Shown: positions 33,738 through 41,402 of the stretch, one piece after another | Position numbering within the stretch: position 1 is the first letter of the stretch | Layout: each line of letters begins with the position of its first letter | DNA from: Lacrimispora sp. | GTDB lineage: Bacteria; Bacillota; Clostridia; Lachnospirales; Lachnospiraceae | DNA: 42,813 bases | Direction: 5' to 3' | Assembly: GCA_029256305.1 (NCBI GenBank) | Contig: JAQSYE010000010.1 | Span: forward strand, 1-42,813 | Notes under the pieces: generated by a model | Told to the model about the DNA's origin: nothing | Database searches by the model: none | Seen by the model: only the letters and a program-made list of their open reading frames with translations | Made by a program: the position numbers and the translations under genes

Positions 33738-35483
33738 CTATCCAATTGACCAGTTTTGGCTCTGATTTTGCAAGTCTGTCATATGACGGTAGATTCCGTC
33801 TCTCTTGTAAAGCGCTTTTGGACTGCCCTCTTCTGCCACTCTGCCCTCTTTTAAAACCACTATTTTATCTGCTTGGGCAACCGTTCTCATCCGGTGGGCG
33901 ATAATGAGAACGGTCTTACTGCGAATCAGATTTGATATGGCGCTCTGTATCAAAGATTCGTTCTCCACATCGAGGGAGGCTGTTGCTTCATCAAGAATGA
34001 TAATAGGCGCATCCTTTAATAAAGCTCTTGCAATGGACAGCCGCTGCCGCTCTCCTCCGGATAGTGCTGACCCATTCTCACCGATCCTGGTCTGAAAGCC
34101 TTCTGGCAGGCGGCTGATAAATTCCATACACTGAGCTGCTCCTGCCGCTTCCATCACCTCTTTGTCCGATGCATCCTTTCTGCCGATCCGGATATTTTCC
34201 ATGACTGTATTATTAAAAAGCATTACATCCTGAAATACCACAGAGATGTGTTTTAACAGATATTCCGGATCTATCTCTTTTACATCCACGCCTCCAATTG
34301 TTACGTTTCCTTTTTCCACATCCCAGAAACGGGCCGCCAGCCTGGCCGCTGTGCTTTTTCCTCCGCCTGAAGGACCGACCAGTGCGGTAACCTGACCCTG
34401 TCTGGCGCAAAAGGATACATCCTCCAAAACAGTTTCACTCTGATGATAGGAAAATCCAACATGATCATACACAATGTCATATCCACTGAGTTTACTGACC
34501 TCTTCCCCTTCCTGCACCGGCTCCTCTTCAATGGCTCTCATTCGTTCCACCTGCAGCAGAGTGGAATAGACAGCCGATAAATTATTTAAGCATCCGGTGA
34601 GAGGACCGTAGATACGGGTGGCCGCAACCATGAACATAAGAAATACCATGAGATCCAACTTTCTTTCCGTCATGAGAAATGCACCGGTAAGAACGGTTGT
34701 GGCCATTCCAAGCCGTAATACCATCTGAGAAGCCGTCACGAAGCCACCATTTAAGACCTCCATCCGGACAGTTCCCTTTTCCACTGCAATGATCTTTGAA
34801 TCTAATTCCTTTAAATAAGCTTCTCTCTGATTATTGGCTTTTATATCCTGAATCGTTTCGATACACTCCTGGATTCCATCGGAGGCTGCCAGTTTCTTCT
34901 GTTTTTCCTTCCGTTCCATCCGGTCAATCACGGGTCTGGTCCCCGCCGAAAGCATAAATGCAGCGGGAATTACCCACAAAAGGGCCAGTGCCATTTTAAA
35001 GTCCAGAAAAAGCATACCCAGTCCGACAAGGGCGGTGGAAAGCAGGGCACCGATCAGTTCCGGTATAAAGTGGGAAAATGCAGTCTCCATCCAGGCACAG
35101 TCTGCCATTATGGTGGTGGTTAAATCTGCCAGATCTCTCTTGCCAAAAAAGGAAAGCGGAATCTTTCTTAATTTTTCTGCCAGCCGAATGCGCAAATTGG
35201 CGCTTTCCTGATAGGAGGCAAGAAAGGTCTTATTATACTGAATATATTGAAGTACGAAAATAAGAATTAGAAAAAGAGCGCTCAATCCAATGAATCCAAA
35301 CAGCCCTATTTTTGTTCCAGCCCCTCCTGTAACAGGCATCAGCAATTTTTGAAGAAAAAGAATCAAAAGAACCATGGGGAAGATAAGTCCCAGGTTTGCC
35401 GCTGCACAGGCAAATACTGCTCTCGTAAGATCTTTTCCTCCCTGCTCACTAAGAGCAAACCGCCTCTGTAAATACTTACTCAT
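33738..35483 (-). CDS. ABC exporter-type half transporter (ATPase + permease), second subunit
   Basis: A 581-residue fused membrane domain (six helices, about residues 20-310) and ATPase domain. ATPase motifs: Walker A GPSGGGKST, Q-loop VFQDVMLFN, signature LSGGERQRLSIARA, Walker B IILDEATASLD and switch His in IAHRM. All catalytic residues are present. Overlaps the stop of the first subunit by eight bases if the ATG at 35483 is used (a GTG at 35492 is also possible). Its TetR-ABC-ABC arrangement resembles both multidrug exporters and the YbtPQ/Irp6-7 metal-siderophore type; the cargo is unknown. Confidence 0.9.
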   Translation of the reverse strand: MSKYLQRRFALSEQGGKDLTRAVFACAAANLGLIFPMVLLILFLQKLLMPVTGGAGTKIGLFGFIGLSALFLILIFVLQYIQYNKTFLASYQESANLRIRLAEKLRKIPLSFFGKRDLADLTTTIMADCAWMETAFSHFIPELIGALLSTALVGLGMLFLDFKMALALLWVIPAAFMLSAGTRPVIDRMERKEKQKKLAASDGIQECIETIQDIKANNQREAYLKELDSKIIAVEKGTVRMEVLNGGFVTASQMVLRLGMATTVLTGAFLMTERKLDLMVFLMFMVAATRIYGPLTGCLNNLSAVYSTLLQVERMRAIEEEPVQEGEEVSKLSGYDIVYDHVGFSYHQSETVLEDVSFCARQGQVTALVGPSGGGKSTAARLAARFWDVEKGNVTIGGVDVKEIDPEYLLKHISVVFQDVMLFNNTVMENIRIGRKDASDKEVMEAAGAAQCMEFISRLPEGFQTRIGENGSALSGGERQRLSIARALLKDAPIIILDEATASLDVENESLIQSAISNLIRSKTVLIIAHRMRTVAQADKIVVLKEGRVAEEGSPKALYKRDGIYRHMTDLQNQSQNWSIG

Positions 35484-37290
35484 GATTTTCACCTACTTTC
35501 CATGAAACTGAGGTCTGATAATTCTTCCACATAGAAGCGTACAACCCCTGTCTTTGAAGCAGTTCCTCATGACTGCCTTCCTCTTCTATCCTTCCATGGT
35601 CCATAACTAAAATCCGATCTGCTCCACGGACAGTGGAAAGGCGGTGGGCAATCATCAGTACTGTTTTTCCTTTTATCAGAGTTTCAAAGGCTTTCTGAAT
35701 GTGGTATTCATTGTCAGGGTCAGCAAATGCCGTTGCTTCATCAAGAAGAACAATGGGGGCGTTCTTTAACACAGCTCTTGCTATGGCGATTCTCTGGCAT
35801 TCTCCGCCTGATAAGTAAACGCCTCTGGTGCCGACCACAGTTTCATACCCGTCCGGGAATTTGTCAATGATATCCTGACAACAGGCTGCCTTTACCGCCC
35901 GCTCCACATCTTTTCTTGATGCTTCCAGTCTTGCCGCCCGGATATTATTTAGAATGGTATCTTTAAAAAGGTGGCTGTCCTGGAAAACAAAACTGATCTT
36001 CTCCATCAGTTTTTCCGTATTCATTTCCCGGATATCAACGCCGCCCACGCAGATACTTCCGCTGTCAACGTCATAAAACCTGGGAATGAGACTGGCTGCT
36101 GTGGTCTTTCCTCCTCCTGATGGCCCCACAATTGCCACAGTGGCGCCCTGGGGAATTTTAAATGACACATTTTGCAAAGCGGGTTGCTTTCCCTTTTCAT
36201 AAGAAAAGGACACATCTTTAAATTCTACAGATGAATCTCCTGGAACGCCGGCATGTTCCGGTTCTTTTAAAGGATGTTCTTCTATAATAAGCATTACTCG
36301 CTTTAAGGCATCCTTTGCTTTTAACGTATTCTCACTGGTCCACATGATTTTATCCATCATGGTAACGCAGACAGGTGTGAACAACACATAAAAAAGAATA
36401 TCCAGAACAACCTTGAGATAAGCAGCACCATAGCCTAAATCCGCAGTCAGAATAAGACCTGCCGGAATGAGGAAAGCAAAAATTCCATTGATGCTGACAG
36501 TATAGGCGCACATGGGAATCCGTAAAGAAACGGTATAGTTAACTGCCCAGTTTTTATAACGGAGAATGGCGCCGTAAAAATTTTTAAAGGAAAAAATACT
36601 CTGCTGAAATGTTTTTACAACCGGAATTCCTCTCACATATTCCACAGCTTCATTATTCATATCCTCCAGTGCGTTCTGGTACTGCGCCATAGTATTTTCC
36701 ATGTTTCCCATCATTACGCGGGTTAACACAAAAAGTCCCACTGCCATGGGCAAAAGGCTGATCAGCCCAAACCTCCAGTCAAAAAACAACAGGAGAAACA
36801 ACACGGCCACAGGTGTCACCATTGCCCCTGCTAAATCGGGAAGCTGATGGGCCAGATAGGTCTCCGTCTGCCCGGCTCCGTCGTCAATGATCCGGCGCAG
36901 TTTACCGCTGCCCATACGTTTCACATATCCTACCGGAAGCCTAGTTAAATGATGAAGTGCAACTGTCTTCATATTCCTGGCTGTGCGGAATGCGCACAAA
37001 TGGGTGCATAAAAGAGCACCGAAATAGATAATCATACTGCTAAGTGCCGCTCCCACAGCATACCAGCCATAAGTAACCATTTCACCTGCTGAAGAGACAT
37101 CTGGCCAGGCGGTTACTGCTGTTTTCACCGCCTTCCACATAAATACGTATGGAAACAGTCCGATTACGGCACTGATTCCTGACAGAAGACATCCCAGCCA
37201 CGTTAAATATTTATAATTTCCTGCAAATGTCAGGAGTGTGACCTTCCCGGTAACCGGAAGTTCTGTCATCAGATTCTTTTTTTCTTCCAC
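35476..37290 (-). CDS. ABC exporter-type half transporter (ATPase + permease), first subunit
   Basis: A 604-residue half transporter: membrane domain (about 30-320) and ATPase with Walker A GPSGGGKTT, signature LSGGECQRIAIARA, Walker B IVLLDEATAFADPDNE and switch His IAHRLST. The AFADPDNE form after Walker B is the one I associate with YbtP/YbtQ-like pairs. I start it at a GTG that has AGGAGG six bases upstream, rather than at an ATG ten codons earlier. It precedes the second subunit, so the pair should form a heterodimer. Direct repeats lie in the gap between tetR and this gene. Confidence 0.9.
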   Translation of the reverse strand: MEEKKNLMTELPVTGKVTLLTFAGNYKYLTWLGCLLSGISAVIGLFPYVFMWKAVKTAVTAWPDVSSAGEMVTYGWYAVGAALSSMIIYFGALLCTHLCAFRTARNMKTVALHHLTRLPVGYVKRMGSGKLRRIIDDGAGQTETYLAHQLPDLAGAMVTPVAVLFLLLFFDWRFGLISLLPMAVGLFVLTRVMMGNMENTMAQYQNALEDMNNEAVEYVRGIPVVKTFQQSIFSFKNFYGAILRYKNWAVNYTVSLRIPMCAYTVSINGIFAFLIPAGLILTADLGYGAAYLKVVLDILFYVLFTPVCVTMMDKIMWTSENTLKAKDALKRVMLIIEEHPLKEPEHAGVPGDSSVEFKDVSFSYEKGKQPALQNVSFKIPQGATVAIVGPSGGGKTTAASLIPRFYDVDSGSICVGGVDIREMNTEKLMEKISFVFQDSHLFKDTILNNIRAARLEASRKDVERAVKAACCQDIIDKFPDGYETVVGTRGVYLSGGECQRIAIARAVLKNAPIVLLDEATAFADPDNEYHIQKAFETLIKGKTVLMIAHRLSTVRGADRILVMDHGRIEEEGSHEELLQRQGLYASMWKNYQTSVSWKVGENHE

Positions 37291-37306
37291 CTTTTTCCTC
37301 CTTTGA

Positions 37307-37351
37307 CTAATTCTGATCATTCACGAGTTAGTTTTGGCTAATTCATGATCA
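37307..37351. repeat. Repeated CTAATTC-TGATCA elements between tetR and the ABC genes
   Basis: CTAATTCTGATCA (37307-37319) and CTAATTCATGATCA (37338-37351) repeat 31 bases apart, with an inverted copy of the half-site, GAGTTAG (37325-37331), between them. They sit just upstream of the ribosome site of the first ABC gene. They could be sites for a second regulator or an internal promoter control; no clear promoter is seen. Confidence 0.45.
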
Positions 37352-37366
37352 AAATAATATGGAGCG

Positions 37367-37984
37367 CTAGAGCCCCATAATTTTTTTCCAGCCCGCATGC
37401 TGGAAGGTTCCAAGTACCAGCCCATAAGACAGGGCCTTTTCTCTGGGAACGTCATGAGCCACAAACTCCCAGAGCTGCTGAAAAAATGACCGTGCTAAAA
37501 TATGAATGATGGTGCTGTCAATCTCCATGACCTCATGCCCCAATTCCTTCATTGCCTCTACAAACTTCCAGGTTGAAGCTTCTTCAATCTCCGTCAGCTG
37601 GCTTAAGTAACTGTCACAGTATTCTTTGCTGCTTTTACAGAAGATCAGTTTAAATAAATCAAACCGGTCATAAACATAATCCACCATCCATGGAATACTC
37701 TCATCTGAGATTACATCAAGGGCTTCCGCCTGTTTTTCGGGAGACAGCCCTGCAAAATCCACATGCATCGTTCTGTAATTTTCCATCAGCCCGTCTGCAG
37801 CGTCTCCGGTTAGTTCCTCAAAAAGAGCCTCCTTGCCTGGAAAATATCCATAAATCGCTCCGGTTGTTACACCGGCCTCTCCTGCAATCCGCCTTAATGA
37901 AGCCCCTTCATATCCGTATTTTAAAAATTCCTGTTTCCCCGCTTCCAGGATAGCGAGGCGTGTATCATATCCCTGAGTACTCAT
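37367..37984 (-). CDS. TetR/AcrR-family transcriptional regulator
   Basis: A 205-residue TetR-type repressor. The DNA-binding N-terminus reads RLAILEAGKQEFLKYGYEGASLRRIAGEAGVTTGAIYGYFPGKEALFEEL, and the remaining all-helical domain would bind a ligand. It is first in the unit with the two ABC half-transporters, and a 26-base palindrome overlies the region just upstream of its start, so autoregulation and control of the transporter are likely. Ligand unknown. Confidence 0.92.
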   Translation of the reverse strand: MSTQGYDTRLAILEAGKQEFLKYGYEGASLRRIAGEAGVTTGAIYGYFPGKEALFEELTGDAADGLMENYRTMHVDFAGLSPEKQAEALDVISDESIPWMVDYVYDRFDLFKLIFCKSSKEYCDSYLSQLTEIEEASTWKFVEAMKELGHEVMEIDSTIIHILARSFFQQLWEFVAHDVPREKALSYGLVLGTFQHAGWKKIMGL

Positions 37985-38122: not shown

Positions 38123-39001
38123 TTAAACCTGACCGCCTTCCACTACCAGATTCTCCGGATCTATTTCATCTCCGTATACTGGTTCCAAAGTCTCTTTATA
38201 ATCCTGATGGAAGAACTGCTCGCCTGCCAAAGATTTAATTTCCTCATTCAGCCAGTCTAAAAGTGCCGTATTCCCTTTCTGTACAGCTGGAGCAATGGTG
38301 TCAAGATTTCCAATAGACTCAATTCCTACTGTGAACCCTTTGTTTTGAAGCGCCCATGCAAGAACTTCTGTATTATCAGTGGAGAATGCAGCCCCTCTGC
38401 CGTCAGCAAGGGCATCATACGCCTCCTGGTATTCGTCAAACTTTAACAATTTGACTTCCGGATGATTCTGAGAGAAATAAGTCTCGGCTGTGGTGCCTTT
38501 TACTACAATTAAGGTTTTATCCTTTAACTGGGACACATCGGAGATTAAAGCTTTATCCGGTGATACTACCCCCAGTGCAACTTTCATGTAAGGAAGTGCA
38601 AAATCCACCTGTTCCTTCCGTTCATCAGTCACTGTAAAATTAGCCAGAATCACATCAACCTTGGCAGATTTCAAGTATTCCACACGGCTGGCAGCTTCCA
38701 CATAGACAAATTCCACTTTATCCTCGCTGCCTAACAAATCCTTTGCAATTCTTTTTCCAAAGTACACATCATACCCCTGGATCTTACCGTTGGAATCCAC
38801 GTATCCAAATGGATTTTTATCACTGAATACTCCGATGCGGATGGTTCCGGCTTTCTTAATTTCATCAAGAGACCTGGCTTTTGCAGAAGGAGACGCCTCC
38901 TGTGCCGGAGCGCCTGCCGGTGTTTTAGCCTGGCTGCATCCTGCTAAAAGCCCCGCCGCCATGGTAATTCCAATTAATGCACCTAATAATCCCTTTTTCA
39001 T
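38123..39001 (-). CDS. Amino-acid ABC transporter substrate-binding lipoprotein, CjaA-like (probable cysteine)
   Basis: Extracellular ligand-binding lipoprotein (signal MKKGLLGALIGITMAAGLLAGC, lipobox LAGC) of the polar-amino-acid (SBP_bac_3) family, 292 residues. From memory it follows the Campylobacter jejuni cysteine-binding protein CjaA (Cj0982) closely along its length: IRIGVFSDKNPFGYVD, GYDVYFGKRIAKDLLG, VEAASRVEYLKSAKVDVILANFT, VDFALPYMKVALGV, KGTTAETYFSQNHPE, DTIAPAVQKGN and EQFFHQDYKETL, ending VVEGGQV. I therefore predict cysteine or cystine as ligand. Last gene of the permease-permease-ATPase-SBP operon, which is preceded by a cysteine-codon leader ORF. Confidence 0.88.
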   Translation of the reverse strand: MKKGLLGALIGITMAAGLLAGCSQAKTPAGAPAQEASPSAKARSLDEIKKAGTIRIGVFSDKNPFGYVDSNGKIQGYDVYFGKRIAKDLLGSEDKVEFVYVEAASRVEYLKSAKVDVILANFTVTDERKEQVDFALPYMKVALGVVSPDKALISDVSQLKDKTLIVVKGTTAETYFSQNHPEVKLLKFDEYQEAYDALADGRGAAFSTDNTEVLAWALQNKGFTVGIESIGNLDTIAPAVQKGNTALLDWLNEEIKSLAGEQFFHQDYKETLEPVYGDEIDPENLVVEGGQV

Positions 39002-39019: not shown

Positions 39020-39772
39020 CTATCGAGCTTCATAATGAAACATATTTAAAAATTGCTTTGCTCTCTCTGTTTTGGGTGAGTTAAAAAACTCCTTGGGACT
39101 TCCCTCTTCTACGACTACACCCTGATCCATAAACAGCACCCGGTCCGCAACTGCCCTTGCAAAATCCATCTCATGGGTTACAATCACCATTGTCATTCCC
39201 TCTCTGGCAAGTTCTAAAACCACCTGTAGAACTTCCCGGACCATCTCCGGATCCAGAGCCGCTGTTATCTCATCAAGGAGAAGGATCTCCGGATGCATGA
39301 TCAGCGCCCGTACAATGGCAACTCTCTGCTTCTGCCCCCCGGACAACTGTCTTGGATAGACATCCTTTTTATCCGACAGTCCAACCCGTTTTAAAAGCTC
39401 CTCCGCCTCTTTGGTCACTTCTGATTTTTCTCTCTTTTGAACCTTAAACGGTGCCAGCAGTATATTATCCAGGATGGTTAAATGGGGGAATAGATCATAG
39501 CTTTGAAATACCATCCCTATTTTTTGCCGCAGCTCATAAACCTCTTTATTCGCCCTGTCAATGACACGGTCTTTAAAACAAATGGCGCCGGAATCTACTG
39601 GCTCTAACATGTTTAAACATCGTAAAAAGGTGCTTTTGCCACAGCCGGAAGGACCTATTATCACAACCACTTCCCCCTTTTTCAGAGAGAATGTAATATC
39701 GTTTAAAACCTTCTGCCCATTTTCATAGGATTTATTTAATTGCTCCGTCTTTAAAATTTCTTCCAATCTCAT
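39020..39772 (-). CDS. Amino-acid ABC transporter ATP-binding protein
   Basis: ATPase of the polar-amino-acid uptake family, 250 residues: Walker [11 protein letters not shown]-loop [12 protein letters not shown], signature [15 protein letters not shown], Walker [16 protein letters not shown] and switch His VTHEMDFA. I use the ATG at 39772, two bases after the permease stop; a TTG two codons earlier would overlap it. It energises the two permeases encoded upstream; cysteine-type substrate is inferred from the binding protein and the leader. Confidence 0.93.
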
Positions 39773-39774
39773 AA

Positions 39775-40452
39775 TCAATCCCTCAATTTCTTATCTAACA
39801 GGGCCGCTGCCCGGGAAAACGGGTAACAGACTGCAAAATACATGATGAAGATAACTCCGTAAACCCAAAGCGCTGCATCGGGAACTGTATACCGGGAAGC
39901 GTCAATAATCTGCTTTCCCACCTTTACCACTTCAATCACACCGATGAGAACCACTAAAGATGTGGTCTTTATCATTCTCGTAAGAAGATTCATCATGGAA
40001 GGAAGAAGCCGGCGAATGGTCTGAGGAATAATGATATACCGGTAAACTCCCATTTTCCCAAGACCAAGTGCATAACCGCTTTGGTACTGATGAACCGGAA
40101 TGGATTCCAGTGCACTACGGACTAAATCCCCCATCTCAGCAGTTCCCCAGAACGTAAATACCAGCACTGCGGCGGTACCTCCTGAAAAATTCACATTTAA
40201 GTGCTTTGCTGCCCCGAAATAAACCAGAAACAAAAGTACAAGCTGGGGCATGATCCGTACCGACTCCAGATAAAGGCGGCTAATAACGCGTACAGACTTT
40301 TTGGTACTGGTCATTACCATTCCAAACAGCATTCCAAGACAGATGGAAAAGATCATTGATAGAACTGCCAGCTTTAGTGAAACCCATAAGCCTCCTAAAA
40401 GCCTTAAAAAGTTATTTCCCTGAAACAGGATTTGAATTCCCAAATTCTGCAT
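39775..40452 (-). CDS. Amino-acid ABC transporter permease (second)
   Basis: A 225-residue His/Glu/Gln/Arg/opine-type permease with five membrane helices; N-terminal [24 protein letters not shown] and the EAA loop [36 protein letters not shown], which docks on the ATPase. The start has GGAGGG six bases upstream and overlaps the end of the first permease gene by 41 bases, so coupled translation is likely. Confidence 0.92.
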
Positions 40453-41092
40453 ACCGAACCCTCCTTTCCAACCAAGTACAAAAAACGGATACCGGCAGCA
40501 GAATCAGTAAATAAGATATTACAAGCATGAAAAGTGCCTCATCTGTCTTATAGTAAATACCAATCAGATCCTTTGCCACAAACATGAGATCTGCAAGAGC
40601 GACTGCACTGAATACGGAAGTTTCCTTAATCAGGAAAATAATGTTGGCACAGAATACAGGAACAGAAGTGGCGACTGCCTGAGGAAGTATAATGAAGCGG
40701 AATATCTGTAACCTCGTCAGTCCCAGGCTTAAGCCGGAATCCGTCTGAATCTTAGGAACCTGTTCAATTCCCGTACGAAATGCCTCTGCCATATAACTTC
40801 CTCCCAGAAATGCCAGCCCTGTAACAGCACAAGTCTCTGAGCTGAGTACGATTCCAATCTTAGGAAGACCGAAATACAGGAAAAACAACTGAATTAACAG
40901 GGGCGTATTCCGAGATATCTCTATGTATCCATTCACAATGGCTGATAAAACCGGTATTTTAAAAATCTTTACCAGACTGCACAACAGACCGATCACAACC
41001 GAAAGTACAATTCCAAAAATCGCAATAGTGAGAGTTAAGCCTGCAGCGCTGGCGTAAAGCGGTGCATACGCACGTATAAATTCAAAGTCCAT
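40412..41092 (-). CDS. Amino-acid ABC transporter permease (first gene of operon)
   Basis: A 226-residue permease of the same type: AAGLTLTIAIFGIVLSVVIG, RNTPLLIQLFFLYFGLP and the EAA loop GIEQVPKIQTDSGLSLGLTRLQIFRFIILPQAV. The ATG at 41092 (AAAGGAG, eight bases upstream) is chosen; a longer in-frame extension would read through the terminator hairpin of the leader and is rejected. The start codon lies 25 bases downstream of that hairpin, so read-through decides expression of the whole operon. Confidence 0.92.
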   Translation of the reverse strand: MDFEFIRAYAPLYASAAGLTLTIAIFGIVLSVVIGLLCSLVKIFKIPVLSAIVNGYIEISRNTPLLIQLFFLYFGLPKIGIVLSSETCAVTGLAFLGGSYMAEAFRTGIEQVPKIQTDSGLSLGLTRLQIFRFIILPQAVATSVPVFCANIIFLIKETSVFSAVALADLMFVAKDLIGIYYKTDEALFMLVISYLLILLPVSVFCTWLERRVRYAEFGNSNPVSGK

Positions 41093-41117
41093 GATGGTAT
41101 CTCCTTTGATATCACGG

Positions 41118-41276
41118 AAAAAGGAGCAGATGACGCGCATCTGCCCCCTTTTCGCCCATGTTTCGTCTGTCACAGGAACTTAGCGGGAAATCAGATATTC
41201 ATACGCGCACTGGAAAAAACTATATCTCTTCCTACGAAGCATCTACAGTGAAAACAACACAGCCTGATATTTTCCG
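41118..41276 (-). promoter_or_regulatory. Predicted cysteine-responsive transcription attenuator (four pairing segments)
   Basis: Minus strand, by eye. Segment 1 (41276-41264, CGGAAAATATCAG) precedes the Cys codons of the leader ORF and can pair with segment 2 (41194-41184, CTGATTTCCCG), which covers the leader stop codon. Segment 2 (41196-41186) can instead pair with segment 3 (41148-41139, GGGGGCAGAT). Segment 3 also forms the terminator with segment 4: GGGGGCAGATG (41148-41138), loop CGCGT, CATCTGCTCC, then TTTTT (41122-41118). A ribosome stalled at the Cys codons covers segment 1 and frees segment 2 to block the terminator; a ribosome reaching the stop covers segment 2 and lets the terminator form. 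Folding energies have not been calculated. Confidence 0.65.
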
Positions 41277-41301
41277 GTACAAATGCAAATAAGTGATTCA
41301 T
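41191..41301 (-). CDS. Cysteine-rich leader peptide (36 codons)
   Basis: A 36-codon ORF between the promoter and the first permease gene. Its ATG has GGGAGG seven bases upstream, as good as any site in the window. It starts MNHLFAFVPENIRL, then LCCFHCRCF: Cys at codons 15, 16, 19 and 21 (TGT, TGT, TGT, TGC; 41259-41239), four cysteines in seven codons. The remainder (VGRDIVFSSARMNI) has none. The stop TGA lies about 40 bases before the terminator hairpin. Size, codon cluster and position fit a regulatory leader peptide rather than a functional protein; a metal-binding microprotein is the alternative. It is too short to appear in ordinary gene calls. Confidence 0.7.
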   Translation of the reverse strand: MNHLFAFVPENIRLCCFHCRCFVGRDIVFSSARMNI

Positions 41302-41338
41302 CTTCGTTCCTCCCTATAAACATACTATTAATATATGT

Positions 41339-41367
41339 ATATTACTATGTAAATCTGCATTTGTCAA
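41339..41367 (-). promoter_or_regulatory. Promoter of the leader peptide / cysteine-type importer operon
   Basis: Consensus TTGACA (41367-41362), 17-base spacer, TAATAT (41344-41339) on the minus strand. The predicted start of transcription is about 30 bases before the leader ATG. The stretch 41093-41471 between the first permease gene and the chemoreceptor gene is otherwise filled by the leader ORF, the attenuator and the chemoreceptor terminator. Confidence 0.8.
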
Positions 41368-41402
41368 TTATTTTTTGGCCTTTTAATAAAAATGGCTGGT
41401 AC

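Follow-up and report, generated by a model that had tools for sequence, protein, structure and literature searches.

What controls an ABC importer operon whose first permease gene is preceded by a short open reading frame rich in cysteine codons and by a terminator-like hairpin? The question is raised by the region 41092-41367 of the window, the whole stretch of 42,813 nucleotides analysed here from Lacrimispora sp. (contig JAQSYE010000010.1). The preliminary description had proposed a trp-type attenuator reading cysteine codons, of the kind whose general mechanism is described in PMC1183508. Our analysis supports this proposal through comparative anatomy, namely a Cys run with variable flanks and a terminator with compensatory changes, and further through segment 2, the cysteine-type receptor encoded downstream and the codons of sister operons. 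We consider it very likely that the region is a trp-type ribosome-mediated transcription attenuator, sensing charged tRNA-Cys and controlling a cysteine importer operon.

The leader and the importer operon

The promoter, the ribosome site and the leader ORF with its cysteine codons are present, on the minus strand, just where the preliminary description had placed them (Table 1). The ORF (41301-41191) translates to MNHLFAFVPENIRLCCFHCRCFVGRDIVFSSARMNI followed by a stop codon; it has its Shine-Dalgarno sequence in the window, and leader ORFs are also found in relatives, as read from their sequences. The terminator is a G+C-rich hairpin with a five-T tail, and it ends 25 nt before the permease ATG at 41092, as had been claimed. 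The RNA from 41324 to 41092 folds with −70.6 kcal/mol and is more stable than its shuffles (z = −2.98).

Table 1 Features of the leader region and of the importer operon, in window positions
Feature	Position	Strand	Basis
-35 hexamer TTGACA	41362..41367	(-)	read from sequence; TTGAC kept in leader alignments
-10 hexamer TAATAT, 17-nt spacer	41339..41344	(-)	read from sequence
Leader-ORF Shine-Dalgarno GGGAGG	41309..41314	(-)	read from sequence; 7 nt before ATG 41301
Leader ORF, 36 codons + TGA	41191..41301	(-)	ORF listing and orthologs
Segment 1, leader start region; possible partner of segment 2 when no ribosome is bound	41288..41299	(-)	folding
Cys codons 15, 16, 19, 21 (TGT TGT ... TGT AGA TGC), proposed sensor	41239..41259	(-)	sequence; genus-wide Cys run
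Segment 2, UAUCUGAUUUCC, spanning leader stop TGA	41186..41197	(-)	alignments and folding
Segment 3, GGGGGCAGAUG, terminator 5' arm and antiterminator 3' arm	41138..41148	(-)	sequence, alignment, folding
Segment 4, terminator 3' arm (41123-41132) and U-tract (T-run 41118-41122)	41118..41132	(-)	sequence, folding, alignment
First-permease Shine-Dalgarno AAAGGAG	41101..41107	(-)	read from sequence
First permease (BPD_transp_1; HEQRo_perm_3TM)	40412..41092	(-)	family matches
Second permease (BPD_transp_1)	39775..40452	(-)	family matches
ATP-binding subunit; best NCBIfam score cystine TcyN, below cut-off	39020..39778	(-)	family matches
Substrate-binding lipoprotein (SBP_bac_3), nearest in PDB to 2YJP and 1XT8	38123..39001	(-)	family and PDB matches

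None of the operon proteins matches an NCBIfam equivalog at cut-off, and the substrate assignment therefore rests on likeness. The two best PDB matches of the binding protein are 2YJP (3.9e-91), described as the L-cysteine receptor NGO2014 of Neisseria gonorrhoeae (PMC7170509), and 1XT8 (3.5e-89), described as a cysteine-binding protein of C. jejuni (PMC4757695), in agreement with the earlier assignment of a cysteine-type receptor. The run of Cys codons matches this presumed amino acid. The upstream neighbour of the operon is a gene for a methyl-accepting chemotaxis protein, whose own terminator was identified by reading. Elsewhere in the window (35476-37984, minus strand) a TetR-like regulator (37367-37984) lies beside an ABC exporter-like gene (35476-37320), both named by reading.

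Conservation in the genus and recurrence beyond it

Homologous operons had been named as a check on the attenuator. In a search of 25 genomes of the genus, whose named relatives in the public set are Lacrimispora, the permease was found in 22, and 21 of these 22 orthologous operons have a Cys-rich leader ORF, followed in all 21 by a terminator-like hairpin; the T-run is no longer than four in several of these terminators and is broken in L044. The exception (L053, genome G012) is without both Cys leader and terminator, as is L067, a genus member among the named loci. The Cys motif reads CCFHCRC, CCFCCRC and once SCFCCRC in the window's clade, while the other 13 genus leaders have CCCCRC or CCCCCRC (nine) or else CCSCRC, CYCCRC or CCCCCRY. 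Invariant across 20 aligned leaders are CTGTAGAT (Cys-Arg) and TCTGA near the stop. Two leaders have altered ends: in L034 a 2-nt deletion 3' of the Cys run shifts the stop downstream, and in L043 an early stop ends the leader ahead of segment 2.

The 80 named loci comprise 14 genus members (13 with the leader, L067 without) and 66 loci from outside the genus. A Cys leader with terminator was accepted in 15 of these 66 (L068, L069, L070, L071, L072, L075, L076, L078, L088, L096, L101, L105, L113, L123 and L126), which are named as Lachnospiraceae, Clostridium, Cellulosilyticum, Eubacterium and unplaced clostridia. Their peptides have the Cys run in common and little else, and a terminator-like hairpin lies downstream in all 15. 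Two possible further cases, L104 and L079, were not counted. In 52 of the 80 named loci (2 possible, 1 untestable) no Cys leader was accepted within the 600-700 nt scanned. ORFs flagged in L095, L100, L102, L109 and L119 were not accepted on reading.

The frequency expected by chance was estimated from ORFs with at least four Cys in eight codons within 450 nt upstream of the permease, in 79 named loci (the 80 less L122, which has short upstream sequence). Such an ORF occurs in 25 of 79 loci; the rate is 41 in 3190 for control segments from these loci and 6 in 1580 for dinucleotide shuffles. The 25 positive loci are not independent, because 13 of them belong to the genus, and one (L109) was not accepted as a leader. 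The bare Cys-codon DNA pattern is common, with 43 places in the window's own genome and tens per genome, and the weight is carried by conservation and position, not by this pattern. In addition, a leader-peptide profile search of 397 genomes gave a match in 39, among which are four clear leaders; 14 other inspected matches were unconvincing.

Alternative pairings and proposed mechanism

Pair counts and the RNA model are based on alignment A5, whose 17 rows are the 19 of A4 minus L068 and L088, in which the terminators are misaligned. In A5, 99.0% of the terminator cells are paired and 5 pairs have two-sided changes; the cells with two-sided changes number 16 versus 5.5 in shuffles, and none of 500 shuffles is as high. 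In the antiterminator, UAUCUG-A-UUUCC joins the arm that lies before and at CAG(A/G)U; 93.3% of its cells are paired, versus 33-59% when it is slid. Two-sided changes were absent from the 2:3 helix in A5, which has only one-sided changes that G-U pairing tolerates: A/G changes in segment 3 are matched by segment 4, and segment 2 keeps the U that pairs with both. In each of the 20 genus leaders segment 2 can pair with the terminator 5' arm. The mutually exclusive pairings proposed earlier hold up, in that the predicted antiterminator excludes the terminator in all 20, with a 2:3 helix that is without two-sided covariation. The parts, their conservation and these exclusive pairings are established by computation.

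Masking the RNA as far as just beyond the Cys run lets 2:3 form with a probability of at least 0.72 in 18 of 20 leaders, all in one register; the register is shifted in L044 and L051. The stop state of this fold assumed, for all leaders, a stop inside segment 2. Such an overlap had been proposed for the window and was confirmed there (Table 1), while five of the 20 leaders (L034, L043, L046, L048 and L049) have a stop that does not fall in segment 2. With the ribosome placed at the real stop, 2:3 has no pairs in 15 of 20 leaders, window included, and 1.1-3.3 pairs in L034, L046, L048 and L049; it has 11.8 pairs in L043, where the ribosome leaves 2:3 intact.

The preliminary description had placed segment 1 just before the Cys codons, and this did not hold. 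When RNA ending before segment 3 is folded without ribosomes, all 20 genus leaders show segment 2 paired chiefly further 5', with the leader start region at 29-57 nt ahead of the first Cys codon. Another candidate for segment 1, AGAGAUA downstream of the Cys run, was dropped as well. A ribosome stalled in the Cys run together with one at the leader start gives a mean of 10.5 pairs for 2:3, with at least 8 in 19 of 20 leaders. If only the stalled ribosome is present, 1:2 is a competitor and the mean for 2:3 is 5.7 pairs (range 0.0-11.3). The window itself has 0.4 pairs of 2:3 in the stalled-plus-initiating state, and 8.6 or 7.7 when the 3' end is moved by 3 nt. A ribosome stalled in the Cys run does not mask segment 1, which an initiating ribosome would cover; we take such masking by the stalled ribosome to be a detail of the E. 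coli trp form and not a defining one. From these models, we read the protector pairing of the attenuator as one that involves the leader's own start.

All 20 leaders exceed the shuffle mean in the upstream pairing of segment 3, though modestly, with a median of 18 of 200 shuffles as good (89 of 200 in L051). Among 33 chosen diverged leaders this pairing is above the shuffle mean in 25, below it in 7 and level in 1. All 33 pass the terminator rule, which is loose: random 330-nt segments pass in 48 of 192 cases, or 31 of 192 at a stricter setting, in a matched control; a first control had passed less often (25 of 235).

We infer that the leader is translated, that ribosomes stall in it and that readthrough responds to cysteine, as follows. 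With ample Cys-tRNA, the ribosome would reach the leader stop and cover segment 2, so that the terminator (3:4) would form before the permease gene. When Cys-tRNA is scarce, the ribosome would stall in the Cys run, and segment 2, left free downstream, would pair with segment 3 and block the terminator, allowing the importer to be transcribed. Without translation, segment 2 could pair with the leader start region, favouring the terminator. The stalled ribosome would not lie directly over segment 1, whose cover would come from an initiating ribosome. Importer production is probably opened only at low charged cysteine tRNA, in a range of clostridia.

Sister leaders, other readings and known systems

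A covariance model made only from Cys leaders was run over 397 family genomes, and matches 18 of them at E up to 0.01. The matches include three Cys leaders and four loci with Met/Cys-rich ORFs, L197 (2.2e-8), L198 (1.9e-7), L199 (5.1e-6) and L202 (7.9e-4), of which MKTFNHQNTNQNMMMMVGCVNMCMMCMMNMAYLRMRRII is an example. In these four, UAUCUG lies at the stop or behind it and CAGGUA is part of the terminator; they stand upstream of MetN or, in L199, of an NlpA lipoprotein (Pfam for L197 and L199). The matches L201 and L203-L212 have no Cys/Met leader, and the ORF of L200 was taken as chance.

Searching the 25 genus genomes for MetN yielded 41 places, of which 30 loci were examined. A leader ORF with at least five Met/Cys in nine codons precedes metN in 24 of the 30, versus 3 of 412 control segments, and all 24 have a terminator-like hairpin (details for 10). 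In the window's own genome (L258, G000:C67; leader ATG at locus position 1262) the leader MRQLTAMQMNMDQMNGMCMMMCCFSECVKNR is followed by a terminator and then by metN, metI and metQ. A second metN lineage (L243-L250) has metN and metI followed by a dehydrogenase-like gene, named by reading; one of its members, L248, scores 4 Met/Cys, below the threshold. No Met/Cys leader is present in a third lineage, made up of five loci (L251-L254, L268). Across the wider family, the threshold of five Met/Cys is reached by 8 of 28 metN loci versus 2 of 385 control segments, in a set that leaves out L304 (short upstream sequence).

For cysK, 30 loci were taken out of 67 places, and 26 remain after setting aside four unplaced ones (L338, L339, L343, L344). 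One paralog lineage, in genomes G010, G016, G021 and G024, has a Cys leader in 4 of the 26 loci (L345, L346, L348, L340), with the motif NNKCCCQAVC or NNKCCCQAVY. The terminator rule is passed by three of these four; L348, whose T-run is interrupted, fails it. A CPGKCVWC frame at the cysK loci L321-L323 was not accepted as a leader.

Met joins or outnumbers Cys in the leaders before metN; as judged from their sequences, the leader codons correspond to the amino acid presumably supplied by the downstream gene, a match that is hard to explain unless the codons are the sensor. Since codons and gene agree in this way, a leader may predict the cargo of an unassigned transporter. The Met and Cys leaders may be homologous or merely alike, given that the model score comes partly from the terminator. 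Should the Met leaders work likewise, the Cys attenuator would belong to a wider leader-peptide regulon for sulfur amino acids. We give about even chances to the view that this is a Lachnospiraceae regulon whose attenuators descend from a single RNA frame (with UAUCUGA at the leader stop and CAGGUA in the arm of the terminator), and that Cys and Met sensor codons have replaced each other, or been mixed, according to the gene downstream; it would include the first attenuators reading methionine codons.

The same leaders bear on other readings of the ORF. Cysteine-rich leader peptides that sense copper are known, and the CC..C.C spacing could bind metal, so that the nascent peptide (CCxxCxC) would sense metal or redox state instead of codon supply. 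Against this, the number and spacing of Cys vary widely (CCCCC, CCCSCC, CMCC, CCCMNCC, CCCMCC), the downstream genes are those of cysteine-type or methionine-type uptake and cysK, and Met takes a share or the majority of the codons before metN; we regard this reading as very improbable. That the ORF encodes a small working protein, with the terminator as a constitutive tuning element, would suit the 67-75% identity of the peptide in seven close relatives, but beyond the close clade little except the Cys run persists, in leaders of 13 to 49 codons, and the naturally shifted or shortened C-termini of L034 and L043 also speak against it, which makes it extremely unlikely.

Control of the T-box or S-box type, where the leader RNA reads uncharged tRNA-Cys or SAM directly and the ORF is incidental, has a precedent in Clostridium perfringens, in which cysteine T-boxes are described as controlling cysK and cyst(e)ine transporters (PMC2940859); there are also 16 T-box matches in the window's own genome, of which 10 exceed the cut-off, and a single SAM riboswitch. 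Nevertheless, no Rfam family, T-box and SAM included, reaches the gathering score in the window, nor does any in 18 related loci; the covariance models of the T-box (RF00230) and the SAM riboswitch (RF00162) match neither the window nor these 18 loci, with no match of either kind in 41060-41400 at E up to 10, and a T-box motif was not seen in the 52 named loci scanned. The leaders' retention of start, Cys run and stop counts against it as well, and we see hardly any chance for this type of control. Two snoRNA names appeared in the scan of 41060-41400, far below their gathering scores. In the same genome (L284, L289), a T-box precedes a methionyl-tRNA synthetase gene (Pfam) and the SAM riboswitch a metK-like gene (by reading); T-box and SAM riboswitch sensors and the leader-peptide type live side by side there. 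A general translation-stress or antibiotic sensor, in which any leader stall opens the operon, recalls the ribosome-stalling leaders described for antibiotic genes in Firmicutes, but it does not account for runs of the very amino acid presumably supplied by the downstream gene and has next to no likelihood.

The attenuators of the E. coli trp/his type have runs of regulatory codons in the leader ORF, alternative 2:3 and 3:4 pairings, a finishing ribosome that covers segment 2 and an intrinsic terminator before the first gene. The Cys-codon attenuator proposed here is like them in these respects, and differs in that it would sense cysteine and control an importer, has segment 1 at the leader start and occurs in a clostridium. 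Cysteine leaders are described elsewhere. The uORFC-8-2 motif, before cysS in Rhodobacterales (PMC8632094), has by its description tandem Cys codons, two stems and a terminator, with Cys-tRNA sensing inferred; it belongs to another phylum and another gene, and usually has two Cys codons. Runs of Cys codons also precede cys operons in Actinobacteria (PMC1262725), and the polycysteine short ORFs of mycobacteria are reported to be cysteine-responsive attenuators (Canestrari 2020, cited in PMC9094748). The mycobacterial ones are leaderless by title, and no conserved terminator hairpin was found in Mycobacterium, whereas the leader in the window is led by a Shine-Dalgarno sequence and followed by an intrinsic terminator.

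The cysteine T-boxes described before cysK and transporters in C. perfringens and some relatives (PMC2940859) likewise link cysteine uptake and cysK to premature termination according to tRNA-Cys charging; there the tRNA is read by the RNA, and no leader ORF takes part. Also comparable are the His-codon leader peptides predicted before hisS/hisZ in Bacillus (PMC2965389), classical leader peptides in a Firmicute whose relatives use the T-box; they differ in reading histidine, in belonging to Bacilli and in the hisS-type genes. The authors of that paper knew of no earlier classical leader peptides outside Proteobacteria and Actinobacteria. The amino-acid attenuators given in a 2013 survey are those for His, Leu, Thr, Trp, Ile/Val and Phe (PMC3766115). 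We found no Cys or Met leader attenuator in clostridia in the open-access literature searched.

The preliminary description had called a Cys attenuator unusual for Firmicutes. As far as searched it is indeed new as a clostridial cysteine attenuator, but it is no singularity of this genome, since it recurs in other Lachnospiraceae and other clostridia. It would provide a translation-based cysteine sensor for clostridia, where T-boxes and S-boxes are described for sulfur genes, and is predicted to recur before the cysteine importer, a cysK lineage and metN operons. The Met/Cys leaders pose the question of whether the ribosome can report methionine supply when every leader also starts with Met, and a second one, of whether mixed leaders read both amino acids. 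In one locus (L098), two Met/Cys leaders (1636 and 1974) stand in tandem before a metN operon, with a terminator after each.
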